Shown piece by piece: positions 9,459 through 36,487 of a DNA stretch of 64,000 bases (position 1 is its first letter; each line of letters starts with the position of its first letter). The notes under the pieces are model-generated. The model was not told where the DNA came from. It did not search any database and saw only the letters and a list, made by a program, of their open reading frames with translations. A program made the position numbers and the translations under genes. The stretch comes from Elusimicrobia bacterium GWA2_56_46. Its GTDB lineage: Bacteria > Elusimicrobiota > Elusimicrobia > Elusimicrobiales > UBA9959. The stretch is from the NCBI GenBank assembly GCA_001799575.1, contig MGTT01000022.1, positions 1-64,000 on the forward strand, written 5' to 3'.

Positions 9459-10628
9459 TTAACGATTCCCTTTTGCTCGGTTGTGAGTCTTGCAAAGCAT
9501 CTGGCAGTTCTTTGCCGCTGTCGCGCCACCTTTGCTCCAAGCTGCTACATGGTCGGCATCCATTTCATTGAGCTTCCAAACCTTGCTCTTATTTGCATCA
9601 TGTCCAATAGCGCAATGCGGGCAATTTGATTCGTTTTTTTTCTCAGCTTTAGCGGTTTGTGTTGCATAAACTGCTTTTTTGGTTGCCTCATCAAAAACAC
9701 GGACTTCAAGCAATTTTGTGTCAACGGATCCGCCGAGAATATACTCAAATATTCCTTTGTGGTCTTGTATATACGGATCAGCATAGAGCTTTCGCAGATC
9801 AGCTGACACTTTCCCGGGGTCATATGCTTTCTTGTGATACTTTTCGTAAAGTCGCCCCCACTCAAGCCCACACATCTCGTTTTCCACATCGGCAAACACA
9901 GTAGAAACCCAATCAATCACACTATTGAAATAATTTTTTAATTCATTAATGTTTTTTTCAAAGCGATGACTACACATATAATCGCCAATATTACCTTTGC
10001 TTACCCAATCCAGCGCGCATTCCATAAATTCCTGCCGGTTGGCACTACCTTTTACATATGCGCTCCATTTTTGGATATTGGCGTTTTGGCTATTACTGAA
10101 CTCTTCTTTGCAAAGCGTCACATACGGGCCAGAATACACGGCGTTGAGCAGTTCTTGATTATTGAGCGGAACGCCGGCTATGTTGATTGTTTTGAACCAC
10201 TCTTTTATCTCGCTTTCAGTCCCTTCACATTCGTAAACAAGAAGTTTAGTTTCCAATATCTTCTCTTTTTTGTCTTTTGCCATTCCAGCAAAATACTGTT
10301 CCATCTTGTTTTCGTCTTTTATGGCAAATTTGTCAGTCACAAAACGTCCGGCACTTGTGATACGCTGTTGCCCATCCAGAACTTCGAGCCTGTCTCCAGA
10401 AACCTTATTAAAATAAATCAGACCTATTGGGTAACCTTTAAGCATTGATTCAATAACCGCAACCTCTTTTTTCCCGCCGTCAGAGGCATAAATATAGTTA
10501 CGTTGATACTCCGGCTGAATAGTTAGCTTGCCAGACAAACCAAACAGTCCCTTGCCCTCAAGTTCGTTATAGATAAACCCTTCGCAAATATCTTTGACGG
10601 TGATGCTAGTTTTTAAAGTTGTTTTCAT
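9459..10628 (-). CDS. DUF262 and HNH domain protein (GmrSD-like, restriction-associated)
   Basis: A 389-residue protein with an N-terminal DUF262/ParB-like domain, its DGQQR motif at ~97-101, preceded by [11 protein letters not shown]. The C-terminus is an HNH nuclease: a Cys pair in NCPHC (~338), then [12 protein letters not shown] and [13 protein letters not shown]262 domains in the GmrS family bind or hydrolyse nucleotides, and the HNH part cleaves DNA. Its start lies one base after the stop of the methyltransferase gene, so the two are coupled and probably form a modification/restriction pair. It carries both domains that are split or fused in type IV systems. The cleavage target is unknown. 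Confidence 0.85.
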
Positions 10629-10629
10629 A

Positions 10630-11814
10630 TTATTTTTTCTTATGCCTTATAAAAATTCTTTTATACGCCATCTTTGCAACGTTGCCTTCATAATAACCAG
10701 CTGTTGGATTACCTTCCTGGTACGCTCCTGTGCCGCCAGCTTTGTAATAATCATCAACAAACTTTCTTGTTAAGCCTGGTGTTTTCTTGAATTTATCATC
10801 AATAAGACCATTATCGCTTGTGCCTAAAATCTCAAACTGGGCAGGATTATATTTATCCAAGAAACTAACGGGCACACCCATTACGCCGTCATAATCGCTG
10901 GGAATATTTTTGACAAAAGGAACATCTATTGCATTGTAATTGTCGTATTTTTTAAACGGTTTTTTTGCACTAAACTTTATAACATCTGCTTCTCTCATCA
11001 GCGGTAATGGCTTATGACGTCTGCCATGATCAAGATTTGTAAACCAGCAAGAATTCCCGAGCCTTGTGTAATCGCCAATGTAGCCGAGCCGAGCTGCCTT
11101 CTGCCTGTCACTCTCGGCAATCTCCGCACCATTTGGCACGGCAAAAACCATATCGCTCCCGTTTCCAGTCGCTCCGAGCCATAGCCTATTTGCTTTTATC
11201 AGCGGAAAGATTTCCTTGTATGTAATCGCATTCATGTTGCCGATAATTACAAACTGTTTGCTGTAGTCAAATAGCTGCATGGCATATTTTCGAAACAAAC
11301 TGAACGGCGGATTTGTCACCACAATATCGGATTGTTTGAGTAGTGTTATGCATTCATCACTGCGAAAGTCTCCGTCACCTTTAAGCGGTGTCCATTCGTT
11401 ATGTTTGTTTGCTTTTAACTGCTTGGCAACATCCTTCAGATTGAACTCGCCGTCGCCATCCATATCATGCACTTTATTGATAATAAACTTATTGGCGGTT
11501 GCCTTTGGACGACCTTTTGATTCTGTGGGAGCGTTGACGTCACCAAACAATTCCAATTGTGTGTTGGCAACGGGCGAGGGCTTGTAGCTGGTAGTGATAA
11601 GCTGTTTCAAACCAAGTTTGTTGAAATTGAGCACAAAATAACGAAAGAAATTACTCTCGAACGGATCATCGCAGTTGCAATACACCACCTTGCCGCGGAA
11701 CACATTGGGGTTGTACTCCAGATGCGCTTCAATTTCTTTCTGAATATCGCCGAACTGGGTATAAAACTCGTCGTTTTTTGCCCTTTTTGCGTTTGTAAGA
11801 TTACTATTTGCCAT
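10630..11814 (-). CDS. EcoRI-type adenine-specific DNA methyltransferase
   Basis: A 394-residue N6-adenine methyltransferase of the EcoRI methylase family. The family N-terminus is clear ([18 protein letters not shown]) and the catalytic motif IV is TNPPF (~176), with flanking IVV and SLFRKYA. It has a normal ATG at 11814 with ribosome site AGGGG. It is the first gene of a two-gene unit with the DUF262-HNH protein. Such methylases with DUF262 partners are recurrent in defence islands; methylation would protect host sites. Alternatively it is a solitary regulator with a nuclease guarding another process. Confidence 0.88.
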
Positions 11815-11833
11815 AGAATTAGCCCCTAAAATT

Positions 11834-11839
11834 ATTATA
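11834..11839 (-). promoter_or_regulatory. -10 TATAAT for the methyltransferase unit
   Basis: On the minus strand this reads TATAAT inside GCAATATAATAATT, 20 bases before the ATG at 11814. No convincing -35 is seen. The short leader fits the immediate ribosome site. Confidence 0.35.
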
Positions 11840-11918
11840 TTGCTTTGCGCGATTAATTGCTATTAAATTTCTGTTCTTTTGCTGTTAAACTGGGCAACCA
11901 TAAAAACAGTATACGATA

Positions 11919-12354
11919 TCAACCAGACAACGGTCTGTTGCGTTGGGAATGGGTGTTTTTGCTGCCTTTCGGTGTCCTGGGGGGGTAAATAGGCCGTATC
12001 ATAAATGGGCGGGAGCATTCTAAGGCGGGCCAGGCCGGGGGCGGCGGCGCCTCCCGAGCGCAAGACGCTCCCGGCCTGGCCCTCTTTCCCCGCAGCTCTC
12101 TCCCCGGTGGCTGCAAAACAGTAACAGAAAAGACCAGCGCGGTGGCCGCAGCAGCGGACGCCGAGCTGGTGTTTTATAATTACGGCTGCCACCTGTTCAG
12201 CCTAAGATAGAAATCAAAAACAGGCCCGCGCCGCGAGCGGTGCGGGGCCGCGCCGCGTGGCCACGCCCGCGACGGCTTCTCGCGGATAAGGAATTTATAA
12301 AGTTTCCTCGGGATGTTGCACGAAGTAGTTTCGAGCTTTATCCTGAAAACTCCG
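11919..12354 (+). ncRNA. Structured intergenic element, copy 2 (candidate RNA)
   Basis: Fills most of the 870-base gap upstream of the methyltransferase gene; no protein gene is credible here. It matches 2384-3145 block by block: a 5' hairpin (11919-11945); a 16-bp stem 12027-12042 with 12067-12082; an outer stem GGTGGC 12106-12111 with GCCACC 12188-12193; an inner hairpin closed by accagc 12133-12138 with gctggt 12165-12170 and capped by ccgc-agca-gcgg; and aggaa/ttcct 12289-12308. It lacks the ~280-base insertion of copy 1. Stem positions change in compensating or wobble-compatible ways while the strand aacagaaaag is unchanged. A degenerate AT/GC module follows at about 12370-12480. Transcription and strand are assumed. 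Confidence 0.55.
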
Positions 12355-12632
12355 AAAATTTTTGCCTTTAAAAAAATCGGGGGAAAAATAATTATTTTCC
12401 GCGCGCGCAGAATTAAAATTAAATATAAATTCCCAAGACCTGCGTCGGTGCCGTATCAGGAGCTATGCTCATCAGACGGCCAAGGTTTTTGAACTCCACG
12501 GAAAGCCGCCGCCTGCCTATACGGAAGTTCGAACCGATCTTTTTCAACTTTTCCCGGTTTTCCTCCGCTTTTCCGCCCTCCGCCAGTTCTCCGGCGTGAA
12601 GAACGCCGACAACGACAATGGCGGTAATGTAT

Positions 12633-12670
12633 GCAAAAAGAGCTGACTAAGATTAGTCAGCTCTTTTTGC
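12633..12670. terminator. Bidirectional rho-independent terminator
   Basis: A perfect 18-bp inverted repeat (gcaaaaagagctgactaa and its complement) with a 2-base centre. The arm itself carries an A5 or T5 run, so it works on either strand. It lies 16 bases past the stop of the secreted-protein gene on the minus strand and marks the right border of the defence island. Confidence 0.85.
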
Positions 12671-12685
12671 GTCCTTATAATTCGT

Positions 12686-13279
12686 TTACTTCGAGGCGAA
12701 AGGCTTTAATATTCCAAAACAGTTATTTTTTTCTTCTTCATTTTCATATCCTGTGGAATAGAAAGATTTCAGAAATACGCTTTCCCTAGTTTTCCTTATC
12801 ACAATAAGTTCCGCGGAATTCAATCCGGTTTCACTATAAAACACAGTTTCACCTTTGTCATCCACCATTGAGGGGATAGAAGACCAGCTTTCACCTCTAA
12901 CAGCACCAAACACAAGTTTGTTGTTTTCAATAAAAACTCTGCCTCTTTTATAGCTCTTTTCATACCGGCTTCCCATTTGGGCTGTAGTGTTAAGACAGTA
13001 TGTCTCAAAATAAAGATCCTGGGACATAGCCAGAAATTCTTCTTTTGTCAAAGGCTTTGCGGTATAGAACGCTTTCGCCAAAGCCGCTCTTGCCGTTTGC
13101 ATGGCGGTGTCGGCATTTTTATCATCGACGGCTTTCGACTCGGGAACGGAAAGTCCTGCTTCGCCTTTCCTGATCTGACCTTTCAGCTGACCCATGGTCG
13201 GAAAGTCCAAAGCGAATACGGGCGTGATAAACCCCGCGGCCACGGATAGAACCGCGACTTTTTTTATTGCTTTAATCAT
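12686..13279 (-). CDS. Secreted protein of unknown function
   Basis: A 197-residue protein with a clear signal peptide (basic KAIKK, hydrophobic core, cleavage near TPVFA-LD). The mature part is hydrophilic, has two Cys (C114 region and NNCFG near the end) that could form a disulfide, and no motif I recognise. The start at 13279 is supported by a strong ribosome site (AAGGAGAG). It is a single gene followed by a perfect terminator. It is likely periplasmic; function unknown. Confidence 0.75.
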   Translation of the reverse strand: MIKAIKKVAVLSVAAGFITPVFALDFPTMGQLKGQIRKGEAGLSVPESKAVDDKNADTAMQTARAALAKAFYTAKPLTKEEFLAMSQDLYFETYCLNTTAQMGSRYEKSYKRGRVFIENNKLVFGAVRGESWSSIPSMVDDKGETVFYSETGLNSAELIVIRKTRESVFLKSFYSTGYENEEEKNNCFGILKPFASK

Positions 13280-24507: not shown

Positions 24508-27500
24508 TTAGTTTGTCGTCCAACAGCCGTCCCCCCACATTATCACCCACTTTGTTGAAGTTACAAGCCTTAAGCTTATAGTCGCGTAGGTCTGGGAAGC
24601 AAGATTATTGTAAATGCTTCCTCCTGAAATAGAGTCCGCTATATACACCCCGGATGGCGCGGTTATTGTCACATTGCCCGCGCCGAGTTTGACCACGGTG
24701 AGAGTGGCGCCGATATCGGCATCGGTCACGGACGGCAAGGTGACGGTCTGCGCGGCGGGGTCATTTATAGTTATGGTTTTGCCGAAGTCGGCGGAAGTGA
24801 TGATTATACCCGAATCCGCCGCCTGTACGGTGAACTTGGGAATAGTGGCGGTTCCGGACGAGATATTGCCTCTATAAACGCCGCCGATATTTATTTCGTT
24901 ACTGGCGCCGGCGGCGGATGTGCCCTGATTGTAGCCGATTATAATATTACCCGTGCCGGTGGTGACTTCGTATCCCGCCTGATAGCCGAGGAATATATTA
25001 CCGCCGCTTCCGGTTGTCAATTTATATCCCGCCTGGTAACCCACAATCGTGGAACTTGAGAACGAGCCGGAACCGGCTCCGTATTTGTACCCGCCGGCCT
25101 GACTGCCGAATATGGCATTGGCGGAGCCGGTATGATTAAACATCCCCGCCCAACTGCCTAAATAAGAGTTGTTATCCCCGGTGGTATTTTCGGAACCCGA
25201 CCATTGGCCCGTAAAAGAGTTCTCCTGGCCCGTAAGATTCTGGTTGCCGGCGAAACTGCCTAAAAAAGTGTTACGCCCGCCCAAGGTGTTCTTACGGCCG
25301 GCCTGGGACCCCGCCATCAAGTTATAACTGCCGCTTGTGTTTAAGATGCCGGCTGCCGTACCCACAAAAACATTATAATCACCTGTATTAACCTTTCCAG
25401 CGTCACCGCCTATCCCCAAGCTCGCGACCCCCCCCAGTATAGCCAGCACGGTGCTGCCGTTTATCTGATACCGATCGACGGATAAAGTTCCTTTCACAGT
25501 TACGGAACTCACACCCATATCGCCCACGATGAGGCCGCCGATGTTAAGATAGTTATTGGTTCCGACGGCCGGTGTAAGTTTGTTGTAACCGATCACAATA
25601 TTGCCGGTGCCGGTAGTTACGTTATAGCCGGCTTTCCAACCCAGGAATACATTGTTTGAGCCGGTGCTGAGAACGTAGCCGGCCTGGTAACCCAGCAGTG
25701 AATTCCCGGCGTAAGAATTACCGGACTGTCCCCTGCCCGCATCTTTTCCCACTATGGTATTGGAACCGCCGGTTACGTTATACGTACCGGCCCCATAGCC
25801 TAACACGCTATTATCTGAAACGGTGGTGTTGCCGTAGCCTGCCCCAACCCCGACAAAAGTGTTGCGCGACCCGCTGGTATTGTCGTTCCCGGAAACCGTG
25901 CCTATAAAAGTGTTCTCATAGCCCGTGTTGTTATTGAGACCGGAACTATCGCCCACAAAAGAATTACCGGTGCCGGTAGTATTGGCATAGCCGGAACTAT
26001 AGCCGAAAAAAGAGTTGGAGGCCGAATTGTCATTTGAATAACCGGCGTAAGCTCCGACAAATGAGTTCTTCCAGCCCGTAGTGTTAAGATATCCCGCTTT
26101 TGCCCCGGCGAAGACGTTGTACTCGCCGCTAGTTGTGGTGTAGCCGGCCTGATAGCCCAGAAAAACGCTTTCATTGGCTCCGGTCATACTATACCCGGCC
26201 TCCGACCCGAGTATGGAATTACGGGCGCCGTATATTGAGGCGCCGGTGTTATATCCGACAAAAGCGTTGTCCGCGCTGGCATCCTCCAGCCGGCCGGCGC
26301 CGTCCCCGACAAAAATATTACGCGTCCCCTTGGCTCCGAGCACCGTGGAGCCGTAGATCTGATACCGCGCGGCAGTGACGCTGCTGGAAGTGTTCACCCC
26401 GTAAACACCCATTTGCAGCGTGGTGGTCGCCACATGATCGCCCAGGTTGTCGCCGACAGCCGTTCCCCATGCCGCCAGGCCCGCCCCGTCCGAGGTCAGA
26501 ACCTTGCCGGCGCCGGGCGCGCCGCCGGTTATTTTTATCTGGCCGGCCACTTCCAGTTTTGCCCCGGGATCCGCCGTCCCTATACCGACATCGCCGTTTG
26601 TTGAAACAAACAGACCGTAACCGGCTGTGGCATGACTGGCGATAAAGATCGCGGAATCTGTAGCTGAGGTGGAAACCACATGCAGTTTAGCCTGCGGCCC
26701 CGTAGTCCCTACGCCGACGACTCCGGCGAATGAGGATGTTCCGGTTCCTTTTACGGTCAGCCCGCCATTCACCGCGGTGTTCAACGACATCCTCTCATTG
26801 GTGCCGTTAACGTCCCTCCAGGAGTGGTTCTGGCCCGCGTAAAAAATGGTTCCGGAGTTAATACCCAGGCCATAGCCGGTCCATAATTTCAGTTTCAGAT
26901 TGTTGCTCGTATCCACGCTGGAAAAAACAATCTGCTGCCCCCCGTCAAGATTGATATTGCCGCCGCTTACATGCAGTTTCCCTGACGGCGTCGTCGTCCC
27001 GATGGCGACATAACCTGCGGTTGAGACATACAGATGGGGCGTGGTCGCGGATGTTGAAATCCAGAGCGATGAGTCGGCCGAATCCGGCGCGATTATAGTC
27101 AGCGAGGAGCCGCTGATCGTCAACTGCCCGGTCATGGTGTCGCCGGTTTTGGCCACCTTGGAATTATCAACGGCGGGAACGACGGGGTAAAGCTCTCCGG
27201 TGGACGTCATGGAGGAGACTATAGTGCCCGCGCTGTTGCGCCAGATCTGCGCGTAGACATTGGCGGCGGTGCCGGTGGAGACCACGTCCAGCGCGGCGCG
27301 CGGCGTATCGGTGGAAATACCCACCAGGCCGCCGCCGGTTATAAACACGCCGCGGTCAACCGTGCCGCTCATGTGAGAATTCGTGCTGCCGGTGACCAGG
27401 AAACCGCCGCGGGTCTTGAACCAGGCGCGGTCCTGAAGATTGTTAAAAACGCCGACGCCCTGGGAATCGGACCAGGTAAACGCGCCGGCCGCGGTAGAAG

Positions 27501-29274
27501 TGGAGGCGAAACCGGCGGAGAAAGAATAAGCCCCGGCCGCGCTGTTCTGGCGTCCGCCCGGAACGGTAGCGGTGTCGCCAGGGGCGCTATTCCCCACGCC
27601 CCCGCCGACGGAAGAGTACTGGTTGCCGGCGGTATTCTGCGAACCTCCGGCGACTACGGCATACAGTCCGGAACCGGTATTCTGCTGGCCGCCGCTTATA
27701 ACGGAATAGGCTCCGCTTGCGACTTCAGTGGCATTGCTGCGGTTTACCTGGAGATCCACAGCGCCCGCCCCACGCGCGTTGCCGGCCACACTCCCCCTGC
27801 CGACCCCGGCGGTCTGAACCTCGCCGTAGGTGCTTATATATACGCCGGAGGCGCTTATGCTCGAAACACTTACAACCGGAAAACCGGCCATGTTCAGGTT
27901 CTGTGTAGCGGTATGGTTCCCGAGGTTGTCGCCGGTTATCCCCGTAAGCCCGGAGCCGTCGCCGTAATACTTAACCGCCGAGCTGAAGCCCACTATGTAC
28001 ACATTGGTGGATACCCGCACCCCGCCGCCCAACGCGGCCGACGCTTCCGATGATACCATTACATTGCCGGCCAGTTTAACCTGCGCGCCGCTAAAGCCAA
28101 CGCCTGTAGCGGTGAAAGAAGACGCGGTTACGTCCCGCGTGAACGTATTGCCGCCCGTGAAGGTCTGCGTGCTGCTGCGGTAAGCGCCGTCGCGCACCGT
28201 CTCGGCGTCCCGCAAATGATCGAATGCCGAAACCGGGCCGGCACGGACGCAACGGACATAGCGGCTGGAAGTCTTGGCGATGGCGGTCACGCTACCGATA
28301 TTGAAGTCCACGCCCCACGCGCTAGTAGTGTCATATTCGGTAGAAGACCAATACCAATTGGCAGCGAACCCTCCCACCACCCCCCTCTGCACGTAGAGCA
28401 GCGCCAACTCGTCCTTGGAAGGCAGGTACCAGTCGTCGTAGTACACGCCGCTCACCGTTACCGCGTAATCCGCGCACAGCCGCGCCGGGGAGCTGCCCGG
28501 GCCCGTGGTGGTGGTTATCATCACAGTATTGGACCTGCCACCGCCTATGCCATCCACACCGGCGCCGGTAAACCCGTTAGTGGGCGTCCACAGCATACCC
28601 GCACTTTGGTCAGCCGTGGCGGAGATAAGCGCGCTGCGCCCCTTCGGGTCCACCCAGTATACTATGCCGCCCCCGTAGGCGTCGCCTATCTTCAGCGTGT
28701 CGGTTGATACCCCCGTAAGCCTAGATCCATCGCCGTAATACTGTGTAGCCGAGCTTATACCCGCCACAAAAAGATTGGTGCTGACATATACCCCGCCATG
28801 CTGCGCCGCCGTGGCGGAAGTGATGAACACATTGGATCGGAAATTAATGGACGACACCCCGACCATGTTCCAACTGGCCATATTCAGCGTGGTGGTAGCC
28901 ACATGATCGCCCAGGTTGTCGCCGACAGCCGTTCCCCATGCCGCAAGGCCCGCCCCGTCCGAGGTCAGCACCTTGCCCGCGCCGGGCGTGCCGCCGGTTA
29001 TCTTTACCTGGCCGGCGACTTCCAGCCTGGCCCCGGGAACGGATGTACCCAGGCCGACATTGCCGGCGGTGGAAACGAATAAATGGGGGGTTACAGCGGA
29101 AGTGGAGGCCCAGAGGCTGGCGGATTGCGTAACGGGAACCAAAATAGTGGCCGAACTGAAAAGCGTGGCCGCGCCGTTCACGGCCAGTTTATCGATCACT
29201 TCAAATTCGGCGGCGTACCCGGGCCGCACAACCAGTAAAAGGGCGACAACCAGGGTTTTAGTCATATGTCGCAT
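24508..29274 (-). CDS. Giant repeat surface protein with internal DUF1566 domain
   Basis: A 1588-residue secreted protein. From the ATG at 29274 (ribosome site AAAGGTG) a signal peptide precedes the mature start AAEFEVID; the frame extends to 29334 without better support. It has N-terminal repeats (TPHLFVSTAGNVGLGT, PGAGKVLTSDGAGLAAWG), a DUF1566 domain at ~185-345, YadA-head-like repeats (SVISGGQQNTGSG, AVVAGGSQNTAGN) near 530-610, and a long region of 15-20-residue Asn/Gly/Ser repeats (NSFVGYNTG, NVFLGWKAGYN) between ~1000 and 1450. The end is a small beta domain (TVTLPSVTDADIGATLT). No membrane anchor or S74 self-cleavage domain is visible. Probably an adhesin, sheath or fibre-like surface protein. 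Confidence 0.8.
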   Translation of the reverse strand: MRHMTKTLVVALLLVVRPGYAAEFEVIDKLAVNGAATLFSSATILVPVTQSASLWASTSAVTPHLFVSTAGNVGLGTSVPGARLEVAGQVKITGGTPGAGKVLTSDGAGLAAWGTAVGDNLGDHVATTTLNMASWNMVGVSSINFRSNVFITSATAAQHGGVYVSTNLFVAGISSATQYYGDGSRLTGVSTDTLKIGDAYGGGIVYWVDPKGRSALISATADQSAGMLWTPTNGFTGAGVDGIGGGRSNTVMITTTTGPGSSPARLCADYAVTVSGVYYDDWYLPSKDELALLYVQRGVVGGFAANWYWSSTEYDTTSAWGVDFNIGSVTAIAKTSSRYVRCVRAGPVSAFDHLRDAETVRDGAYRSSTQTFTGGNTFTRDVTASSFTATGVGFSGAQVKLAGNVMVSSEASAALGGGVRVSTNVYIVGFSSAVKYYGDGSGLTGITGDNLGNHTATQNLNMAGFPVVSVSSISASGVYISTYGEVQTAGVGRGSVAGNARGAGAVDLQVNRSNATEVASGAYSVISGGQQNTGSGLYAVVAGGSQNTAGNQYSSVGGGVGNSAPGDTATVPGGRQNSAAGAYSFSAGFASTSTAAGAFTWSDSQGVGVFNNLQDRAWFKTRGGFLVTGSTNSHMSGTVDRGVFITGGGLVGISTDTPRAALDVVSTGTAANVYAQIWRNSAGTIVSSMTSTGELYPVVPAVDNSKVAKTGDTMTGQLTISGSSLTIIAPDSADSSLWISTSATTPHLYVSTAGYVAIGTTTPSGKLHVSGGNINLDGGQQIVFSSVDTSNNLKLKLWTGYGLGINSGTIFYAGQNHSWRDVNGTNERMSLNTAVNGGLTVKGTGTSSFAGVVGVGTTGPQAKLHVVSTSATDSAIFIASHATAGYGLFVSTNGDVGIGTADPGAKLEVAGQIKITGGAPGAGKVLTSDGAGLAAWGTAVGDNLGDHVATTTLQMGVYGVNTSSSVTAARYQIYGSTVLGAKGTRNIFVGDGAGRLEDASADNAFVGYNTGASIYGARNSILGSEAGYSMTGANESVFLGYQAGYTTTSGEYNVFAGAKAGYLNTTGWKNSFVGAYAGYSNDNSASNSFFGYSSGYANTTGTGNSFVGDSSGLNNNTGYENTFIGTVSGNDNTSGSRNTFVGVGAGYGNTTVSDNSVLGYGAGTYNVTGGSNTIVGKDAGRGQSGNSYAGNSLLGYQAGYVLSTGSNNVFLGWKAGYNVTTGTGNIVIGYNKLTPAVGTNNYLNIGGLIVGDMGVSSVTVKGTLSVDRYQINGSTVLAILGGVASLGIGGDAGKVNTGDYNVFVGTAAGILNTSGSYNLMAGSQAGRKNTLGGRNTFLGSFAGNQNLTGQENSFTGQWSGSENTTGDNNSYLGSWAGMFNHTGSANAIFGSQAGGYKYGAGSGSFSSSTIVGYQAGYKLTTGSGGNIFLGYQAGYEVTTGTGNIIIGYNQGTSAAGASNEINIGGVYRGNISSGTATIPKFTVQAADSGIIITSADFGKTITINDPAAQTVTLPSVTDADIGATLTVVKLGAGNVTITAPSGVYIADSISGGSIYNNLASQTYATISLRLVTSTKWVIMWGDGCWTTN
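26416..26556 (-). repeat. 141-base internal repeat, copy A
   Basis: Nearly identical to 28885-29025 in the same gene and orientation, with only a handful of substitutions. It encodes the module around GKVLTSDGAGLAAWGTAVGD. The high nucleotide identity points to recent duplication or gene conversion inside the surface protein gene. Confidence 0.85.
28885..29025 (-). repeat. 141-base internal repeat, copy B
   Basis: Partner of 26416-26556. Recombination between the two copies would delete about 2.5 kb in frame and give a shorter surface protein, a possible phase- or size-variation route. Confidence 0.85.
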
Positions 29275-29416
29275 AAATTCACACCTTTTCCGAAAGATTC
29301 CCCCCAGTAGCCGGCACGCAAACCTCATAGCCAAACGTCCAGCATATTATATATGATGGACAATAGGAAATCCCGAAGAAATTACGAAGATTTAACGACC
29401 TGGGTAAGATAGTTTT

Positions 29417-30535
29417 TCACCGCCATTCTTCGTTTTGGATCTTCCAGCCGTCTTCCAGCTTCTCCACGTAGTAGGCGATCTTCCGGGTCGTCAGGTCTTT
29501 AAAACGGCGGGTGGCGCGGACCAGCGCCCTCCGGCCGTTCTTTACGCCGAGATCGTAGATCTCGTTCACCTGCGTTTCCAGAAGCTTTTCCATATAAAAC
29601 TTCAGGTTGCCATCGAAATATCTGATACGCTTCCTGCCGATGCGGTCATAGGTCAGGGAAAAGGCCTGAGCGTCGCTCTTTATCACCGCCGCGTCCTGGG
29701 ACGAGAACAGCTTCCGAACCTCCGCCTCGTCCGGCGCGGGAAGGCGCGGCAGATCCTTCGCCTGAAAAGGCGCCGCGGCCTTGTTCCAGCCGGCTTCGGC
29801 GTTCTCCAACGGCCTGCCGTAGATCTCTTTGAATTTTTCCCCGAAGCGCTCCAACCGTTCGTCCGGATGCAGCCGTCCCAGCTCACGGGTAGCCGCGTAT
29901 AATTCCATGAATTTTTTCCAGCCCGCGGCCTCCACCAGGAACTTCACGAATGAACCGGCTTTTGTGTAGGACAGGCTGGAAAGGTCGTTCCCATAGGCCA
30001 GGTCGGCGTTTTCGACGCTGAACCGGCTCTGATAACCGAGGATACGGGATTTGTAAGAAAGCCATTCATGCAGATCCCTGCCGGACTGATCGAGGTACTC
30101 CGCCATGCCTTCCGCCAGAAGCGGGACAGAGTGGCGCCCCCCCAGCAGCCGGAAAGAGAGCGCGTGCGCGAGTTCGTGCCCGTAGCTGATCTTTTCGTAG
30201 CAGGGCGAGAAATCAAAATAAACGGCGCTGATGGAATCCCCCGAGGTCGAGCCTTCCCCGAAACCCGAGGGGGTCGAGCCCCGATCCGGGTAAAAAGTGA
30301 TATCTATCCTGCCGCCCGGCGCCTCACCCAGGGCGGCGGAAATGGCCGCGTAAGCGCGCTCACGGTTGGCGGCGATGGCCGCCATCTCGCGGCCGGCGGC
30401 GCTGTCTTTGACGTAATGGAAAATAAAATGAGGGCTTTCCGAGGAAACAAAGACCGGCCCGGCCGCCGCGCCGGGGCTCGCCGCCACGGAGCCCATAAAC
30501 AGGATCGCCAGACGGATTAAAACCTGTTTTTTCAT
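29417..30535 (-). CDS. Secreted peptidase MA-family metalloprotease
   Basis: A gluzincin-type zinc protease in the cell envelope. A signal peptide (LIRLAILFMGSVAASPGAAA) precedes a catalytic domain with the zinc motif HELAH (~150) and the downstream glutamate helix LLAEGMAEYLDQ. The last ~130 residues look like a separate SnoaL/NTF2-like domain (TYDRIGRKRIRYF, KIQNEEWR). I use the ATG at 30535, where the signal peptide starts. It follows the ATP-grasp/MFS cluster by 57 bases and may share its transcript. Its substrate is unknown. Confidence 0.8.
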   Translation of the reverse strand: MKKQVLIRLAILFMGSVAASPGAAAGPVFVSSESPHFIFHYVKDSAAGREMAAIAANRERAYAAISAALGEAPGGRIDITFYPDRGSTPSGFGEGSTSGDSISAVYFDFSPCYEKISYGHELAHALSFRLLGGRHSVPLLAEGMAEYLDQSGRDLHEWLSYKSRILGYQSRFSVENADLAYGNDLSSLSYTKAGSFVKFLVEAAGWKKFMELYAATRELGRLHPDERLERFGEKFKEIYGRPLENAEAGWNKAAAPFQAKDLPRLPAPDEAEVRKLFSSQDAAVIKSDAQAFSLTYDRIGRKRIRYFDGNLKFYMEKLLETQVNEIYDLGVKNGRRALVRATRRFKDLTTRKIAYYVEKLEDGWKIQNEEWR

Positions 30536-30591
30536 AAGCCGACTTTTCGACGAAAATTTATTGACCCGCAAAAGCCCTAGTTTTGCGCAAG

Positions 30592-31830
30592 TTAGACAAT
30601 AGCACTATCAGAGTCGCTTGTTATCGCGCCGGCAGGGGTTATATGCGGATCCACCAGAAAGATGGCGTAAAACTCGGCGGTCAGGGCCAGAACGGCCCTG
30701 ACGATAAGCATAAAAGCGACCCCGTAAGTGGTCCAGAGAAATCCGCCGAGCATCGGCCCCAGCGTCTCGCCCAGATTTTCGCCGATGGTCATGGTGCCTA
30801 TGGTCTGGGCTCTCCGGGAGCGGTCGGCGCCGGAGATCCTGGCCATCAGCGCCCCCCAGGCGGGGCGGAAAGCGGCCTTGCCCATGTCATCCACCACTTT
30901 TCCGGCCGCCACGCCCGCCAGGGCGGGAAAGAAGAGGTAAAGCAGAGAGGAAAGCGTATTGGCGGCGCTCCTGATGAGAAGGACAAGTTTGCGGCTGACA
31001 TTGTCGGACAGCCAGCCGAAAACTGGGCCTGAAACCATCATGAGCGCGGTTGAAATCCCGAAAACAAGGCCGGTCTGTGCTTCTGTAAGACCCGCGTACT
31101 GGGTCGCCAGGAGCGGGAAGAGCGAGTTCAGCATCGAACTGGTGCTGGTGATCAGGAAACCGAAACCGGCGAAAGTTGCTATGGGAACCTTGGGAACAGC
31201 GGGCCGGACGGCGTCCGGCTCAGGGCCGGGAACCGGCTTTTCAGGAAGACGCTCATGGACTTGTTCCCTGGTATAGCGCAGCACGACATAAAGAGGCAGC
31301 ACCGACAACGCGAAAGCGCAGAGGAAAACGAACTTATAATTGGCGACGGTCCACGCAAGCAGGAGCCCCGCGGCCGTCTTACCGAGGGCGCCCGCCGTAT
31401 AGCGCGCGGTCCAGTACCACGAGAATGCGGAAGCCACCGATTTCTCTCCGCCGCGCTCAGCCAGCATGGAATTGATGGCCGGATCGCGCAGTGACTCTAT
31501 CATGCCGTGCAGAAGTCGTATAGCGTAAAGCTGCCAGGGCGCGTCCGAGAAAGCCAGCAGCAGCGCCATAAAGCTTCTGGAACCGATCGCCAGGCCCAGG
31601 CTGCGCTTGAAACCGAAGCGATCGGCGAACCGGCTCATGAACGGCTTCAGGGAAACTTCGGCGACGGCGTTAACGCCGAACAGCACGCCGATGGCGGTCA
31701 TGCTCATGCCGATATGATGGGCGTAGAGGGGCAGGGCGAAACTGACAAGCCCGAAGCTCAGGCGCGACAGGAACCCCTCTCCGATAAGCGCAAGGAGCTC
31801 GGGAGACGCGCGCGGCGCCGCAGGCTTCAT
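30592..31830 (-). CDS. MFS transporter
   Basis: A 412-residue major facilitator with 12 predicted helices and MFS loop motifs (SRFADRFGFKRSLG after helix 2; FGWLSDNVSRKLV after helix 8). Start overlaps the stop of the upstream ATP-grasp gene (ATGA). As the last biosynthetic-cluster gene it is a good candidate exporter for the cluster product, or self-resistance pump; substrate not predictable. Confidence 0.88.
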   Translation of the reverse strand: MKPAAPRASPELLALIGEGFLSRLSFGLVSFALPLYAHHIGMSMTAIGVLFGVNAVAEVSLKPFMSRFADRFGFKRSLGLAIGSRSFMALLLAFSDAPWQLYAIRLLHGMIESLRDPAINSMLAERGGEKSVASAFSWYWTARYTAGALGKTAAGLLLAWTVANYKFVFLCAFALSVLPLYVVLRYTREQVHERLPEKPVPGPEPDAVRPAVPKVPIATFAGFGFLITSTSSMLNSLFPLLATQYAGLTEAQTGLVFGISTALMMVSGPVFGWLSDNVSRKLVLLIRSAANTLSSLLYLFFPALAGVAAGKVVDDMGKAAFRPAWGALMARISGADRSRRAQTIGTMTIGENLGETLGPMLGGFLWTTYGVAFMLIVRAVLALTAEFYAIFLVDPHITPAGAITSDSDSAIV

Positions 31831-32657
31831 GCGGCGCTCCCGGGAGACGGGAGAGCCAGGGAAATTTTTCCGGCGGCGTAGTTCTCAATATAATCCGCCA
31901 CGGCCTCGGCCGCGTTAGGCGCGCCTTTATAGCCTGGAAAGCAATTAACGTCCACCACCGACGGCCCACGCGGCGTTTCAATGAGATCCAGGCCGAACAG
32001 GCCGAGACCGAAAGCCCGGCCGCAGCGCAGAGCCAGATCGCGTTCCTCCGAAGTGACCGGGCACGAACGTCCGGGAACAGAGTAGCTGGTGGCCGAGAAA
32101 GGTTTGCGTATCGCGAAAACCTGCTCTCCGGCTACATAAAGCCTGAGGTCTTCCCCCGTGCCTTCTAGGAACTCCTGGATAAGCATTGGGCCTTCCGGAA
32201 CCGGCAGCGCTTTTACGTCTTCCGGGGTTCTCACCACTTTAACGCCTATCCCCCGCCAGCCCATGCAGGGCTTGACGATGAGGGGAATCTGTTTGACGAG
32301 CGGGAGAAGGAGCCCCATGTCCCCGGTGACCCAGGAGCGGGGGGACGGGATGCCGCCGGCGCGCAGATATTGAACCGAGATGATCTTGTTGCGGGTGGCG
32401 GCGCTGGAAGGGTACGGATTCAGAAGCCTGGCCCCGCGCGCGTGAAGCACGCCGGCAAGGCTCAGGGAAAGATCCGTATAGGATTTCAGGAGATAGAGTG
32501 TGTTTTCCGTGTCCAGACCGTCCAGCCGCGTCAGCTGCTCTTCGGCGATCATGCTTTCCACCACGCGGCCGCGGCTGGAGAGGATCTCCGAAACATCCAG
32601 GACTATCTGGCTCGGCACCGGCGGATCCCGCCTCGCCGCCATAAAACAAAACTTCAT
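31827..32657 (-). CDS. ATP-grasp ligase C (RimK-like)
   Basis: A 276-residue ATP-grasp enzyme. It has a pre-grasp domain to ~95 (LNPYPSSAATRNKI marks the hinge), nucleotide-binding strands IPLIVKPCMGWRGIGV and PMLIQEFLEG, and metal ligands in FGLDLIE and VVDVNCFPGY (Asp, Asn). RimK-type enzymes activate a carboxylate as acyl phosphate and join it to an amine. It is separated from the dehydrogenase gene by a repeat-rich gap and coupled to the MFS gene. It shares a hinge and C-terminal pattern with ligase B, so the two are paralogues. Confidence 0.83.
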   Translation of the reverse strand: MKFCFMAARRDPPVPSQIVLDVSEILSSRGRVVESMIAEEQLTRLDGLDTENTLYLLKSYTDLSLSLAGVLHARGARLLNPYPSSAATRNKIISVQYLRAGGIPSPRSWVTGDMGLLLPLVKQIPLIVKPCMGWRGIGVKVVRTPEDVKALPVPEGPMLIQEFLEGTGEDLRLYVAGEQVFAIRKPFSATSYSVPGRSCPVTSEERDLALRCGRAFGLGLFGLDLIETPRGPSVVDVNCFPGYKGAPNAAEAVADYIENYAAGKISLALPSPGSAA

Positions 32658-32675
32658 AGTTTCTCCTTAACTTTA

Positions 32676-32748
32676 GCGGTTAGTGAACAGCGCCCAGTAA
32701 TCAGTAAAAATGCGCTGATCACTAATCACTAACCACTGGCCACTGTTT
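32676..32748 (-). repeat. Heptad array with inverted partner
   Basis: From the stop of the dehydrogenase gene, four units of a 7-base repeat (AGTGGTT, AGTGATT and variants) run to about 32716. An inverted version follows to 32676, so the RNA could fold into a long imperfect hairpin. Nearly every unit contains TAG or TGA. Confidence 0.75.
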
Positions 32749-33939
32749 TTAGTTCCAGGTCATACTGTCGAGACTCAGCAGTACTCTGCCGTGCTGCCAC
32801 CCCTCCGACAGACGGTGCCAGGAATCAGCGGCGAGCCGGCCGAAAGGGCTGGAGCCGTCCACTCCGCAGTATTTGTGAATGGTCTCCTCTCCGCCCCGGG
32901 TCGCGACATGGTGCCGCAACTCGAACGCCGAGGGATCCCTGTAATTGTTGAAGAACAGCGCCGCCGCGACGGCCAGCCCGAGATTTTTAGGCTCCACGCC
33001 TGCCGCTTCCGCCAGGAGCGCGGTTCCGACCAGTCTGTCCTCCGCTTTCAGCTTCCGGCCGGGTTCGCGGCCTACGCGGCTTATAGGGTCGCATAATTGC
33101 GGGTTGCAGATACGATCCAGAACTTCCCGGCAATCGCTCTCGTCGCCCGCGATCTCTTTGCCGTAGCGGGCCGCCAGGCCCTGCTGGCCTTCCTTTATGA
33201 CCGCAAGCACCGCGGCGCGGATCTGGGGATCCCTGATGGCCGTGTGGATGTATCTATAGCCTTTCAGACAGCCAAGGTAAGCGGTAGCGGCGTGCGCGGC
33301 GCTGAACATGCAGAATTTTTTCTGGACCCAGGCTTCGTATTTATCCGTTACCAGCATTCCCTCGATGTGAGGCAGCGTCCCGCGCAGCCCGGCGCTTTCC
33401 ACTATAAACCTGGAATAAGTATCCCCCACGAACACCAGAGGCTCTCCGGCTTCGGGATCTCCTATACGCTGCGTCACGGCCCTGGAGATCAGAACCCCGG
33501 CGAAACCGTGGCGATCCAGCGGGAAGCCGTCCGGCAGATGCCGGCTCACCCAATAGCGCAGCGAAGGCCCGGCGCTTCCGGAATTTTCAAAGGCCAGAAC
33601 GTTTATCGGCTCTACGCGCTTCGCTATGCCCGCGGCGATGAGGCCGGAAATATCTTCAAGGTTATCGCAGCCGACCGAGGTGATGATAACGCCCGCGTCC
33701 GCTATCTCCTCAGCCACGCGCCCGGTTTCACAGGCGGAGACGGCGCGGATCCCGTCCACCGTTATCTCCCTCGTTCCGCCCTGCCCCGCCAGGCGCACGA
33801 CGTAGCGTCCTACCCGGTTGAGATGTTCCGCCATCAAGGGGTTTCTGGCGACAAAAACCGCCTCATGTCCGGAATCGCGTAAAAGCTGGCCCGCCAGCCC
33901 GCAGCCTATCCGGCCGGCCCCGAAGATAACAGCTTTCAT
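32749..33939 (-). CDS. Mannitol-1-phosphate dehydrogenase-like oxidoreductase
   Basis: A 396-residue member of the MtlD/mannitol dehydrogenase family. The Rossmann motif is AVIFGAGRIGCGLAG (4-18) and the polyol-dehydrogenase core includes NVLAFENSGSAG, KKFCMFSAAHAATAYLG and FFNNYRDPSAF. These enzymes interconvert a ketose phosphate and polyol phosphate with NAD. Here it is translationally coupled (4-base overlap) to ligase B and surrounded by ATP-grasp ligases, with no PTS genes. It therefore probably makes or modifies a polyol(-phosphate) building block and not a catabolic substrate. Substrate inferred only. Confidence 0.78.
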   Translation of the reverse strand: MKAVIFGAGRIGCGLAGQLLRDSGHEAVFVARNPLMAEHLNRVGRYVVRLAGQGGTREITVDGIRAVSACETGRVAEEIADAGVIITSVGCDNLEDISGLIAAGIAKRVEPINVLAFENSGSAGPSLRYWVSRHLPDGFPLDRHGFAGVLISRAVTQRIGDPEAGEPLVFVGDTYSRFIVESAGLRGTLPHIEGMLVTDKYEAWVQKKFCMFSAAHAATAYLGCLKGYRYIHTAIRDPQIRAAVLAVIKEGQQGLAARYGKEIAGDESDCREVLDRICNPQLCDPISRVGREPGRKLKAEDRLVGTALLAEAAGVEPKNLGLAVAAALFFNNYRDPSAFELRHHVATRGGEETIHKYCGVDGSSPFGRLAADSWHRLSEGWQHGRVLLSLDSMTWN

Positions 33940-34757
33940 AGACGCCCTCCGTTTTTATTCAGAACCTGAAGTCCCGCGTGATAAATGTAATCCGCCAGCC
34001 GGAGCGCGGCATCCGGCACGCCTTTAAACCCCGGGAAACTTTGCACGTCCACGATATAGGGCTCGCCTTTGCTTACCACCACGTCCAGTCCGAAGACCTT
34101 GACGCCGAAAGCTTCCCCGCAGCGAAGGGCATAATTCCGCATGGACGGCGTGACCGTCAGCGGAGCGCCGAGCTTTTCCTCGTACGTCACGGCGGGCCAT
34201 TTACGCAGCACCCCGAACACCTGCCCGTCTATCACGTAAAGTTTATGATCCGGCCCGTCCGGCTTGCGGTAGCGCTGGGCGAAGACCGGACCGCGGCAGG
34301 CGGGAGACTGGACAAGTTCGCTCTCCTCATTCACTATCCTCACCCCTTCTCCGCCTTTCCCACGGTAAGGCTTGACGACCAGGGGCCCGTCCCTCAAAAG
34401 GGGGGCAAGCTGCCTGAGCTCCGCCGTCACATATGTTTCAGGCACGGGTAGCTGGGCGGCCTTAAGAACCCCGGTGGAGGCGATCTTATCCCGGAGGATA
34501 ACGGAGGCCGGGTAGGGGTTGAGGATCACGGCGCCCGCCGCGTGCAGAATGCCGGCAAGCCCTAAAGCCATCTCGCCGGTGTCCTTGAGCACATAAAGAT
34601 CGTGCGTGGGGCGGATCAGGCACAAATGGTTCAGCCGTTCTTCCGGGCAGATAATTTCCAGTTCTACGCCGTATTCCCCGAGCAGCCGCGCCACTTCCGG
34701 CATTACCAGGCTTTTGCGGTCCGCCGAGGCTCGCGGCATGATCATGCCTATTTTCAT
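33936..34757 (-). CDS. ATP-grasp ligase B (RimK-like)
   Basis: A 273-residue ATP-grasp enzyme with hinge LNPYPASVILRDKIAS, nucleotide-binding GPLVVKPYRGKGGEGVR and PVFAQRYRKPDG, and metal-site strands VFGLDVVV and IVDVQSFPGF. In this last motif the usual Asn metal ligand is Gln, which may alter activity. It overlaps ligase A upstream and the dehydrogenase downstream by 4 bases each. Closest in the window to ligase C. Confidence 0.83.
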   Translation of the reverse strand: MKIGMIMPRASADRKSLVMPEVARLLGEYGVELEIICPEERLNHLCLIRPTHDLYVLKDTGEMALGLAGILHAAGAVILNPYPASVILRDKIASTGVLKAAQLPVPETYVTAELRQLAPLLRDGPLVVKPYRGKGGEGVRIVNEESELVQSPACRGPVFAQRYRKPDGPDHKLYVIDGQVFGVLRKWPAVTYEEKLGAPLTVTPSMRNYALRCGEAFGVKVFGLDVVVSKGEPYIVDVQSFPGFKGVPDAALRLADYIYHAGLQVLNKNGGRL

Positions 34758-35611
34758 ATCTTCAAGCTTTTATCCCTTATCCTTAAACCCGTAAAATCCG
34801 TCTGAATTTTCCGGGTTACATATTCCGCCAGCCGCCGATCCGCTTCCGGTACTCCCGTATAATTGGGAAATTCGTTCACTTCTATGACGAATAGACCTTC
34901 CGGCGACTCTACGCAGTCCACGCCGTAGAGTTCCAGGCCGAACAGCCGCCCCAGGCGGCGGCCCAGTTCCTCCAGCTCTCTGGTCAACGGCACAAGTTCA
35001 ACTTTCGCCTCGCGGGCCATTCCGCCGTTGGCGGCAAGTCCGAACGGCGACGGCTTGCGCACCGCCCAAACCTCTTCCCCGATGCAATAAAGCTTAAGGT
35101 CACGGCCGTCATTGGCTATAAAACTCTGCGCCAGCGCGGCCGGCTCGGGCCACTCCGCCGACTTCATTTCCCCGGGGCTGTGAACAAGGAGAAGACCGCG
35201 GCTGTTGTCCCCGAAAACGGGTTTGAGGATCACCGGATAAAGCCGGAGCGGAATAATTTTAAAAAGTTCCGGGACGGGGCCCAGGAACGTCCGGGGCGTG
35301 GGCAGCCTGGCTTCGGCCAGGAGCACCGCCATATCGGCTTTATTGTGAACGGAGGCGATGGCGGAACGCGCGTTGATGGTACGCACTCCGCGCGCCTCCG
35401 CCCAGCCCAGCATAGAAAGAAGCTGGCAGCTCCGGCCGCGCGCCGCTATAAGATCAAGTTTTTCGGTCCACCGGCCGTCTTCCAGCGCGTACGCCGAGGC
35501 CTCCGGATCCAGGCAGACCGTTTCGTGGCCGGCTGCGCCCAGAGCCGAGATCAAACCGGCCGGCTGGGCCTGGGCAAGATACCGTTTTTCAACTAGAATT
35601 CCTATTCGCAT
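34754..35611 (-). CDS. ATP-grasp ligase A (RimK-like)
   Basis: First gene of the cluster, 285 residues. Features: YPVILKPVFGDNSRGL for nucleotide binding, ALAQSFIANDGRDLKLY, then LYGVDCVE and VIEVNEFPNY with intact acidic and Asn metal ligands. It is more divergent than B and C (hinge region NARSAIASVHNKAD). The final ~18 residues (RKIQTDFTGLRIRDKSLKI) are encoded by a palindrome and heptad repeat at 34767-34815, so the natural C-terminus has been replaced or extended by the repeat. Confidence 0.83.
   Translation of the reverse strand: MRIGILVEKRYLAQAQPAGLISALGAAGHETVCLDPEASAYALEDGRWTEKLDLIAARGRSCQLLSMLGWAEARGVRTINARSAIASVHNKADMAVLLAEARLPTPRTFLGPVPELFKIIPLRLYPVILKPVFGDNSRGLLLVHSPGEMKSAEWPEPAALAQSFIANDGRDLKLYCIGEEVWAVRKPSPFGLAANGGMAREAKVELVPLTRELEELGRRLGRLFGLELYGVDCVESPEGLFVIEVNEFPNYTGVPEADRRLAEYVTRKIQTDFTGLRIRDKSLKI
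34767..34815 (-). repeat. Palindrome plus heptad array inside a gene 3' end
   Basis: An imperfect 28-base palindrome (cccgtaaaatcc with gaattttccggg, 34788-34815), then about three AAGGATA-like heptads to 34767. It is translated in frame as the tail of ligase A and the start codon of ligase B follows directly. Confidence 0.75.
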
Positions 35612-35782: not shown

Positions 35783-36487
35783 TCACAACCGTTTACAGTA
35801 TTTATTCAGCACGCGGGTTCGGACGCTTTCATAACTGATATTTTCGGTCATCAGCGCGGCATAGCCTATCCCGTCCTCGTACTTCAGCAGTTCCGCCATA
35901 AGCCGGTATTCCAGGTAGCGCTTGAGGAGATCGTTACGGTTCCATTCGCCGCAGATATCCGCCGAGTTCATATCACCGGTTTCCCGCGCGAGATGTTCCG
36001 CATAGCCGTCTTTCTTCCAATCCGCCGCGGCAAGATACTTCAACGCGCCCAGTTTATTCTTAACCTGGGCCTTTGCCAGTTCATGAACCATCACGCTTTC
36101 AAGGATACGCGGGGCGCCCCGCCCCGAGGGGTCGTAAGCGAGGTCTTTGCCGGGATCGGCCGAAGCGATGAACACTTTATTGCTGACGGGGTGCGCGCAG
36201 GAGTAACTTCTGCCGCAGAACGGCGCGAAGAACCTGTACTCCCCGTAACCGCCGGTCAGATAGATCTCCAGCTTCCGTCCCGGATCGAAAAATTCCTCCG
36301 CGGCGAGCGCGTCATAAACCCTCGCAAGAAGCTTATCCGTAAGCTCGTTCAGCGGTAACCTGGAATAAAGAGTGATGTTATTATAGCCGCGGCTGGCGCT
36401 GAAAAGAATCCCGGGATAAGAGGTTATCGCGCCATATGCCGCGAGGACAACCAGCGCAACATATAACAAAAGTCTTTTTACTGTCAT
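35783..36487 (-). CDS. Membrane-anchored degenerate zincin-like protein
   Basis: A 234-residue protein with an N-terminal membrane anchor or signal (LLLYVALVVLAAYGAI). Around residue ~135 it has MVHELAKAQVK and ~30 residues later KDGYAEHLARE. The spacing copies the gluzincin layout HExxH...E seen in the peptidase-MA protein at 29417-30535, but the second His is Lys. The zinc site is thus probably lost, suggesting a non-catalytic paralogue, or a different function. Two Cys (CGRSYSC) may pair. Function unknown. Confidence 0.65.
   Translation of the reverse strand: MTVKRLLLYVALVVLAAYGAITSYPGILFSASRGYNNITLYSRLPLNELTDKLLARVYDALAAEEFFDPGRKLEIYLTGGYGEYRFFAPFCGRSYSCAHPVSNKVFIASADPGKDLAYDPSGRGAPRILESVMVHELAKAQVKNKLGALKYLAAADWKKDGYAEHLARETGDMNSADICGEWNRNDLLKRYLEYRLMAELLKYEDGIGYAALMTENISYESVRTRVLNKYCKRL

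Follow-up and report, generated by a model that had tools for sequence, protein, structure and literature searches.

A five-gene operon of three ATP-grasp enzymes, an MtlD-like dehydrogenase and an MFS transporter, conserved across bacterial phyla and probably devoted to polyol-phosphate chemistry

Background

A cluster of three ATP-grasp enzymes (here ligases A, B and C), an MtlD-family dehydrogenase and a major facilitator superfamily (MFS) transporter in Elusimicrobia bacterium GWA2_56_46 has its closest described relatives in the RimK, LysX and ArgX ligases, the kinases of the ITPK family and mannitol-1-phosphate 5-dehydrogenase. In the Staphylococcus aureus enzyme (M1PDH), Asn119/Lys200/Asn205 form the catalytic triad and Arg283/Arg287/Arg294 the phosphate pocket (PMC6623548). 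Bacterial operons with ATP-grasp enzymes and an unknown product have been described for the CDC123-type R2K clade and for amidoligases, but the R2K paper (PMC4431377) makes no mention of MFS, mannitol or FHA. We analysed a window of 64,000 nucleotides (contig MGTT01000022.1 of assembly GCA_001799575.1, positions 1 to 64,000, forward strand) that carries the cluster. A preliminary description, made from the letters of this DNA, knew of no pathway with such a gene set, and text searches of open-licence papers on ATP-grasp enzymes with mannitol-1-phosphate, MtlD, phytase, FHA or MFS found neither a paper describing such a cluster nor a characterised match. The cluster is an undescribed operon type assembled from known superfamilies.

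The five-gene locus

Open reading frames and Pfam matches confirmed the five genes proposed in the preliminary description. They lie on the minus strand in the order A-B-MtlD-C-MFS:

30592-31830, minus strand: MFS transporter, putative exporter, 412 aa (MFS_1 at 1e-39 and 136.5 bits, over the profile cut-off)
31827-32657, minus strand: ligase C, ATP-grasp, 276 aa (DVNCFPGYKG; Lys in 'LLKS'; AlphaFold pLDDT 90.6)
32658-32748, no strand: intergenic gap between MtlD and C, 91 bases, with inverted-repeat-like DNA
32749-33939, minus strand: predicted MtlD-family polyol-phosphate dehydrogenase, 396 aa (Mannitol_dh 1e-18, Mannitol_dh_C 2e-22)
33936-34757, minus strand: ligase B, ATP-grasp, 273 aa (DVQSFPGFKG, with Gln for the metal Asn; Lys in 'VLKD')
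34754-35611, minus strand: ligase A, ATP-grasp, 285 aa (RimK-like 'RGRS' in the N-terminal half; metal motif EVNEFPNYTG)

Three of the four junctions (A/B, B/MtlD and C/MFS) are 4-base ATGA overlaps, as had been noted, and the fourth (MtlD/C) is the gap, whose inverted-repeat-like letters read AGTGATTAGTGATCAGCGC ... GCGCTGTTCACTAACCGC. The three ligases match the RimK-type Pfam profile at 8e-16, 5e-11 and 1e-11 and are the only PF08443 matches in the whole 2.66-Mb genome assembly. A promoter scan gave results at chance level.

Conservation of the operon across genomes

Almost certainly the five genes are a single conserved operon that has moved between phyla as a block. When 84,980 species genomes were scanned with aligned B and C ligases as query, 33 loci came up, and all five genes were found together at 11 further loci, nine of them in the order of the window:

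Acidobacteria gp2: L050, order A-B-MtlD-C-MFS, MFS cut by the contig end
Anaerolineae: L052, L054 and L056, order A-B-MtlD-C-MFS
Betaproteobacteria: L058, order A-B-MtlD-C-MFS
Gammaproteobacteria: L063, order A-B-MtlD-C-MFS
Eisenbacteria: L065, order A-B-MtlD-C-MFS
Actinobacteria: L076 and L079, order A-B-MtlD-C-MFS
Rokubacteria (L061) and Dermatophilaceae (L068): all five genes, permuted order

Besides the Elusimicrobiota of the window, complete loci thus occur in Acidobacteriota, Chloroflexota, Pseudomonadota, Rokubacteria, Eisenbacteria and Actinomycetota, and linkage in at least seven phyla is far beyond chance. Contig ends truncate loci L053, L062, L074 and L077, and L052, L053, L054 and L074 are close relatives that do not count as independent. 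The cluster genes elsewhere are mostly 38-64% identical to those of the window, and the MFS orthologs 40-56%. Almost all sampled carriers are metagenome-assembled genomes (MAGs) of uncultured bacteria.

Ligase A orthologs are present in 18 or more loci. In a tree of the loci, the C rows form one clade (100/98), the A rows one weakly supported group (85/80) and most B rows stand apart; because the three are mostly separate in this tree, the paralogs predate the spread of the operon. Each of A, B and C constitutes an ortholog group of its own.

The window cluster occurs only sporadically in its lineage. Among 150 relatives there was no second genome with the window-type MtlD-like gene, and across 341 genomes of the phylum that gene gave five weak matches (29-40% identity) with no adjoining ligase. 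Close ligase relatives were found only in two genomes of another genus of the same family, G013 and G026. One contig of G026 carries A and the start of B, inside which it breaks; on another lie a further B-like ligase, the last part of C and a gene for an MFS protein 82% identical to that of the window. In G013 the sequence after ligase B is N for at least 49 kb. A glycerate kinase gene adjoins A in both genomes and is lineage-specific.

The MtlD-like dehydrogenase

Mapped on S. aureus M1PDH, the window enzyme keeps N119, K208, H216 and the phosphate-binding R291/R295/R302, all of which are invariant in the 16 aligned cluster MtlD-like proteins. Because the phosphate pocket and the catalytic residues are conserved, the substrate is likely a polyol phosphate. 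The second oxyanion Asn (Asn205 in S. aureus) is replaced by Ser (S213) in all 13 MtlDs encoded inside the gene run; three acidobacterial MtlDs encoded just outside the run have Asn, as do those non-cluster homologs for which the motif was read. As judged from these alignments, S213 is a distinctive change of the in-cluster form. The best NCBIfam equivalog model scored 218 bits, under its cut-off of 368 bits.

The ATP-grasp enzymes

The preliminary description saw two paralogous ligases and a divergent third, and this holds: B and C are 39% identical, and a tree with reference sequences unites them with a fourth paralog, D, at 99/97 support and leaves A outside.

In profile searches with A, B and C the top matches were RimK, LysX and ArgX (1e-18 to 1e-24), followed by ITPKs (about 1e-10 to 1e-15). 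All three score under the TIGR00768 RimK cut-off of 143.4 bits (A 98.7, B 52.9, C 80.6) and over the 23-bit cut-off of Pfam Ins134_P3_kin/ITPK (PF05770; A 39.3, C 34.7 and B, barely, 23.3). AlphaFold models of B (pLDDT 91.3) and C (pLDDT 90.6) share the ATP-grasp topology of LysX and ArgX, their best Foldseek matches (TM up to 0.82, E down to 2.5e-19); PsnB is also among the fold matches, and maize ITPK1 matches at TM 0.69-0.71.

RimK_Pa and ArgX carry an RxNxxxGG acceptor loop following the ATP-grasp lysine strand, and LysX carries it in the form TNTARGG; in A, B and C the loop is missing or deleted. At the position of 'HKLTD' in ITPK1, where RimK has an Arg, ligases B, C and D show the Lys of an 'LKS' motif; A has the RimK-like 'RGRS'. 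FPG(Y/F)KG in B, C and D resembles the ITPK FPGYEG, with FPNYTG in A. A basic residue also occupies the position of 'QRPS' in ITPK1, and A reads 'RKPSP' against the ITPK 'QRPSL'.

The D...DxN metal site is intact in C and takes the form ExN in nearly all A sequences. The Gln that the preliminary description reported in place of the metal-binding Asn of B is indeed present; of 18 B sequences, nine have Ser at this position, six have Asn, two, both from Elusimicrobia, have Gln and one has His, with at least five changes on the B tree. Since the two metal-site Asp are invariant in B, it probably still binds Mg.

The transporter, locus variants and the phytase link

A transporter is part of every complete locus, and the MFS protein of the window is a probable exporter. 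In L071 and L075 B and C occur alone behind an ABC exporter (PF00664 type) with a cyclic-nucleotide-binding domain. ABC exporters of this class export peptides and lipids. Because the ligase pair adjoins an ABC exporter in these other loci, outward transport is most likely for the MFS protein too.

In Blastocatellia-type acidobacteria (L055, L059, L066, L122 and L123) the run A-B-C-MFS is followed by ligase D, a phytase and a Ser/Thr kinase-FHA-MFS fusion (rearranged in L059), and the MtlD-like gene lies a few kb off on the opposite strand, beside an FHA-TPR protein. L060 is a partial copy, and no MtlD-like gene was seen within the stretch of L124. The MFS half of the fusion in L055, L066 and the rearranged L059 is about 32% identical to the cluster's transporter.

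Of the five Blastocatellia-type scan loci, four have the beta-propeller phytase (PF02333) beside the cluster, as does a Chloracidobacterium-related MAG; in the betaproteobacterium L058 it comes immediately after the MFS gene. Among 11 genomes of the acidobacterial order of G355, it was detected in all seven with the cluster and in none of the four without it (Fisher p 0.003, a value that overstates independence because the genomes are related). In six of the seven it lies within about 3-5 kb of the cluster on the same strand, and the seventh contig is too short to tell. Two phytase N-termini that were read, one acidobacterial and one betaproteobacterial, resemble signal peptides. Most other cluster-bearing genomes, including that of the window, have no phytase, so we regard it as an accessory part.

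Further genes accompany the cluster elsewhere. A second C-like ligase is added in L061 and L065, and a DUF5916 outer-membrane-type protein adjoins the cluster in L061, L062, L063, L065 and L069 (Rokubacteria, Eisenbacteria, a gammaproteobacterium). Between MtlD and C there is a sulfotransferase in L063 and a small open reading frame in L052 and L056, with none in the window. L057 encodes, at 9906-13097, a 1063-aa frame with a C homolog (61% identical) at its head, then a methyltransferase domain and a C-terminal region. In the Gemmatimonadetes loci L078 (4726-7134) and L080 a ligase-B-like domain and a GT28-type glycosyltransferase domain share one frame.

In the window, both proteins flanking the cluster (29417-30571 and 35783-36487) look secreted and zinc-peptidase-like; the first has a weak Peptidase_MA_2 match and the second no Pfam match. 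Further off, 24508-29334 encodes a 1608-aa protein with many 'GYQAGYxTTSGSNNVFLG'-type repeats and a DUF1566-like stretch, which resembles a large surface protein.

Proposed pathway and alternative explanations

We consider it quite probable that the cluster builds a small molecule on a polyol-phosphate scaffold. The MtlD-like enzyme would interconvert polyol and ketose phosphates, and the product would be carried over the membrane by the MFS protein. The preliminary description went further, to an exported conjugate of a polyol-phosphate unit with amino acids. Its single pathway unit is upheld by the conserved operon, its polyol-phosphate step is likely from the MtlD pocket, and its transporter is always present. 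The amino-acid conjugation is not supported: the acceptor loop is missing, the scores fall under the RimK cut-off, and the phytase link points to polyol phosphorylation.

The absent RimK loop, the ITPK-type residues and the phytase link are the reasons why we rate phosphorylation above aminoacylation. The MtlD-like enzyme would supply the polyol phosphate, and B and C, perhaps also A, would act as ITPK-type kinases whose conserved Lys and Arg hold it while the gamma-phosphate of ATP is transferred to its hydroxyls, one after another. The product, an acyclic polyol with several phosphates and in that respect phytate-like, would leave the cell through the MFS protein; in acidobacteria the signal-peptide-bearing phytase and the kinase-FHA-MFS fusion may turn it over or sense it. 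With its kinase layer included, this whole account is the best explanation we have, though we hold it with somewhat less than even confidence. We favour it over aminoacylation, a mixed route and salvage import, in that order.

Several observations weigh against phosphorylation. Overall profile and fold similarity, the latter from models, is higher to peptide ligases than to ITPK. The ITPK profile matches mainly the C-terminal part and leaves the N-terminal half unmatched. ITPK joins the B-C-D side of the maximum-likelihood tree at 77/57, and the approximately unbiased test gives p 0.145 for A to D alone as one clade. An active kinase would not be expected to lose the metal Asn, as B has in most lineages; the majority of cluster genomes are without phytase; and we know of no MFS exporter of polyol polyphosphates.

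The strongest competitor, possible though we give it somewhat less credence, is that A, B and C are peptide or ester ligases. They would turn the carboxylate of an amino or hydroxy acid into an acyl phosphate and attach it, in turn, to a hydroxyl or amine on a polyol-phosphate unit, the conjugate being exported by the MFS protein. The ranking of RimK, LysX and ArgX as best profile matches and of ArgX and LysX as best fold matches argues for it, as do the 'RGRS' retained in A and the pairing of B and C with exporters of a class that handles peptides and lipids; ester-forming ATP-grasp enzymes also exist, and PsnB matches by fold. The acceptor loop is nevertheless missing from all three groups, their scores are under the TIGR00768 cut-off, a polyol phosphate alone supplies neither carboxylate nor amine, and the phytase link would be left unexplained.

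A mixed pathway, with A as a RimK-like ligase, B and C as kinases and a product bearing both an acyl group and phosphates, seems unlikely. It would fit the separation of A from B-C-D and the RimK-type Arg/Ser in A versus the ITPK-type Lys in B, C and D, but A also is without the RimK acceptor loop, its 'RKPSP' is like the ITPK 'QRPSL', and the split in the tree that includes ITPK is weak.

Less probable still is salvage, in which the MFS protein would import partly dephosphorylated inositol or polyol phosphates, freed from phytate by extracellular phytase, for processing by the cluster. The phytase with its signal-peptide-like N-terminus adjoins the cluster in acidobacteria and a betaproteobacterium, and MFS family membership alone gives no direction of transport; yet three ATP-consuming ATP-grasp enzymes would be unusual in catabolism, phytase is present in only a minority of cluster genomes, and the pairing of ligases with ABC exporters elsewhere suggests export. 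Chance adjacency of genes with unrelated functions, for which the absence of MtlD and the ligases from the other same-genus genomes searched might speak, is refuted by the same set being linked, with translational overlaps, in at least seven phyla.

Some known routes were also considered and rejected. Plain mannitol metabolism does not fit a cluster without mannitol transport genes and an MtlD under the equivalog cut-off. RimK protein glutamylation was set aside for want of the acceptor loop and of an S6 or carrier-protein gene in the cluster, lysine or arginine biosynthesis of the LysX/ArgX type as no LysW gene was seen beside the ligases, and a ribosomally synthesized and post-translationally modified peptide of the graspetide kind as the window cluster has no precursor gene, only the 91-base gap. 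A tblastn search of IMG/VR found no relatives that would indicate phage origin, and plasmids gave only RimK/LysX-level matches (about 24-34%) or ordinary mtlD (32-36%). A Nocardia plasmid ATP-grasp gene (L097) was dropped as a lead, having no MtlD or MFS gene annotated nearby.

A five-gene operon retained over such evolutionary distance must yield something useful. If B and C are kinases, they would extend inositol-phosphate-like chemistry to bacteria and provide a native substrate for the acidobacterial phytases; if they are ligases, they would make a new class of polyol-phosphate conjugates. In its fullest form, which we offer only tentatively, our proposal is a horizontally transferred pathway, present in seven phyla or more, for making and exporting acyclic polyols that bear several phosphates. 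Such compounds would be prokaryotic counterparts of the inositol polyphosphates; three ITPK-like kinases would build them on a hexitol phosphate, and acidobacteria would add a dedicated phytase and a kinase-FHA-transporter fusion.

Comparison with known systems

The cluster enzymes share with RimK, LysX and ArgX (PF08443, TIGR00768) the fold, the ATP-binding residues and, in A and C, the DxN/ExN metal motif. They differ in having no RxNxxxGG, in their identity of only about 20-25%, and in occurring as three paralogs with MtlD and MFS genes and no gene for a LysW or S6 substrate. With ITPK (PF05770) they have in common the Pfam match, the FPGY motif and counterparts of the HKLTD Lys and of the Arg/Lys-Pro-Ser stretch, whereas the N-terminal half is unmatched, fold similarity is lower and inositol as substrate is not implied here. 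The MtlD-like protein matches mannitol-1-phosphate 5-dehydrogenase of S. aureus and Shigella (3h2z) over its full length (2e-53) and keeps the Lys, the His, Asn119 and the three Arg, but it is about 35% identical, carries the in-cluster Ser for the second oxyanion Asn, and is encoded in a cluster without mannitol transport genes.

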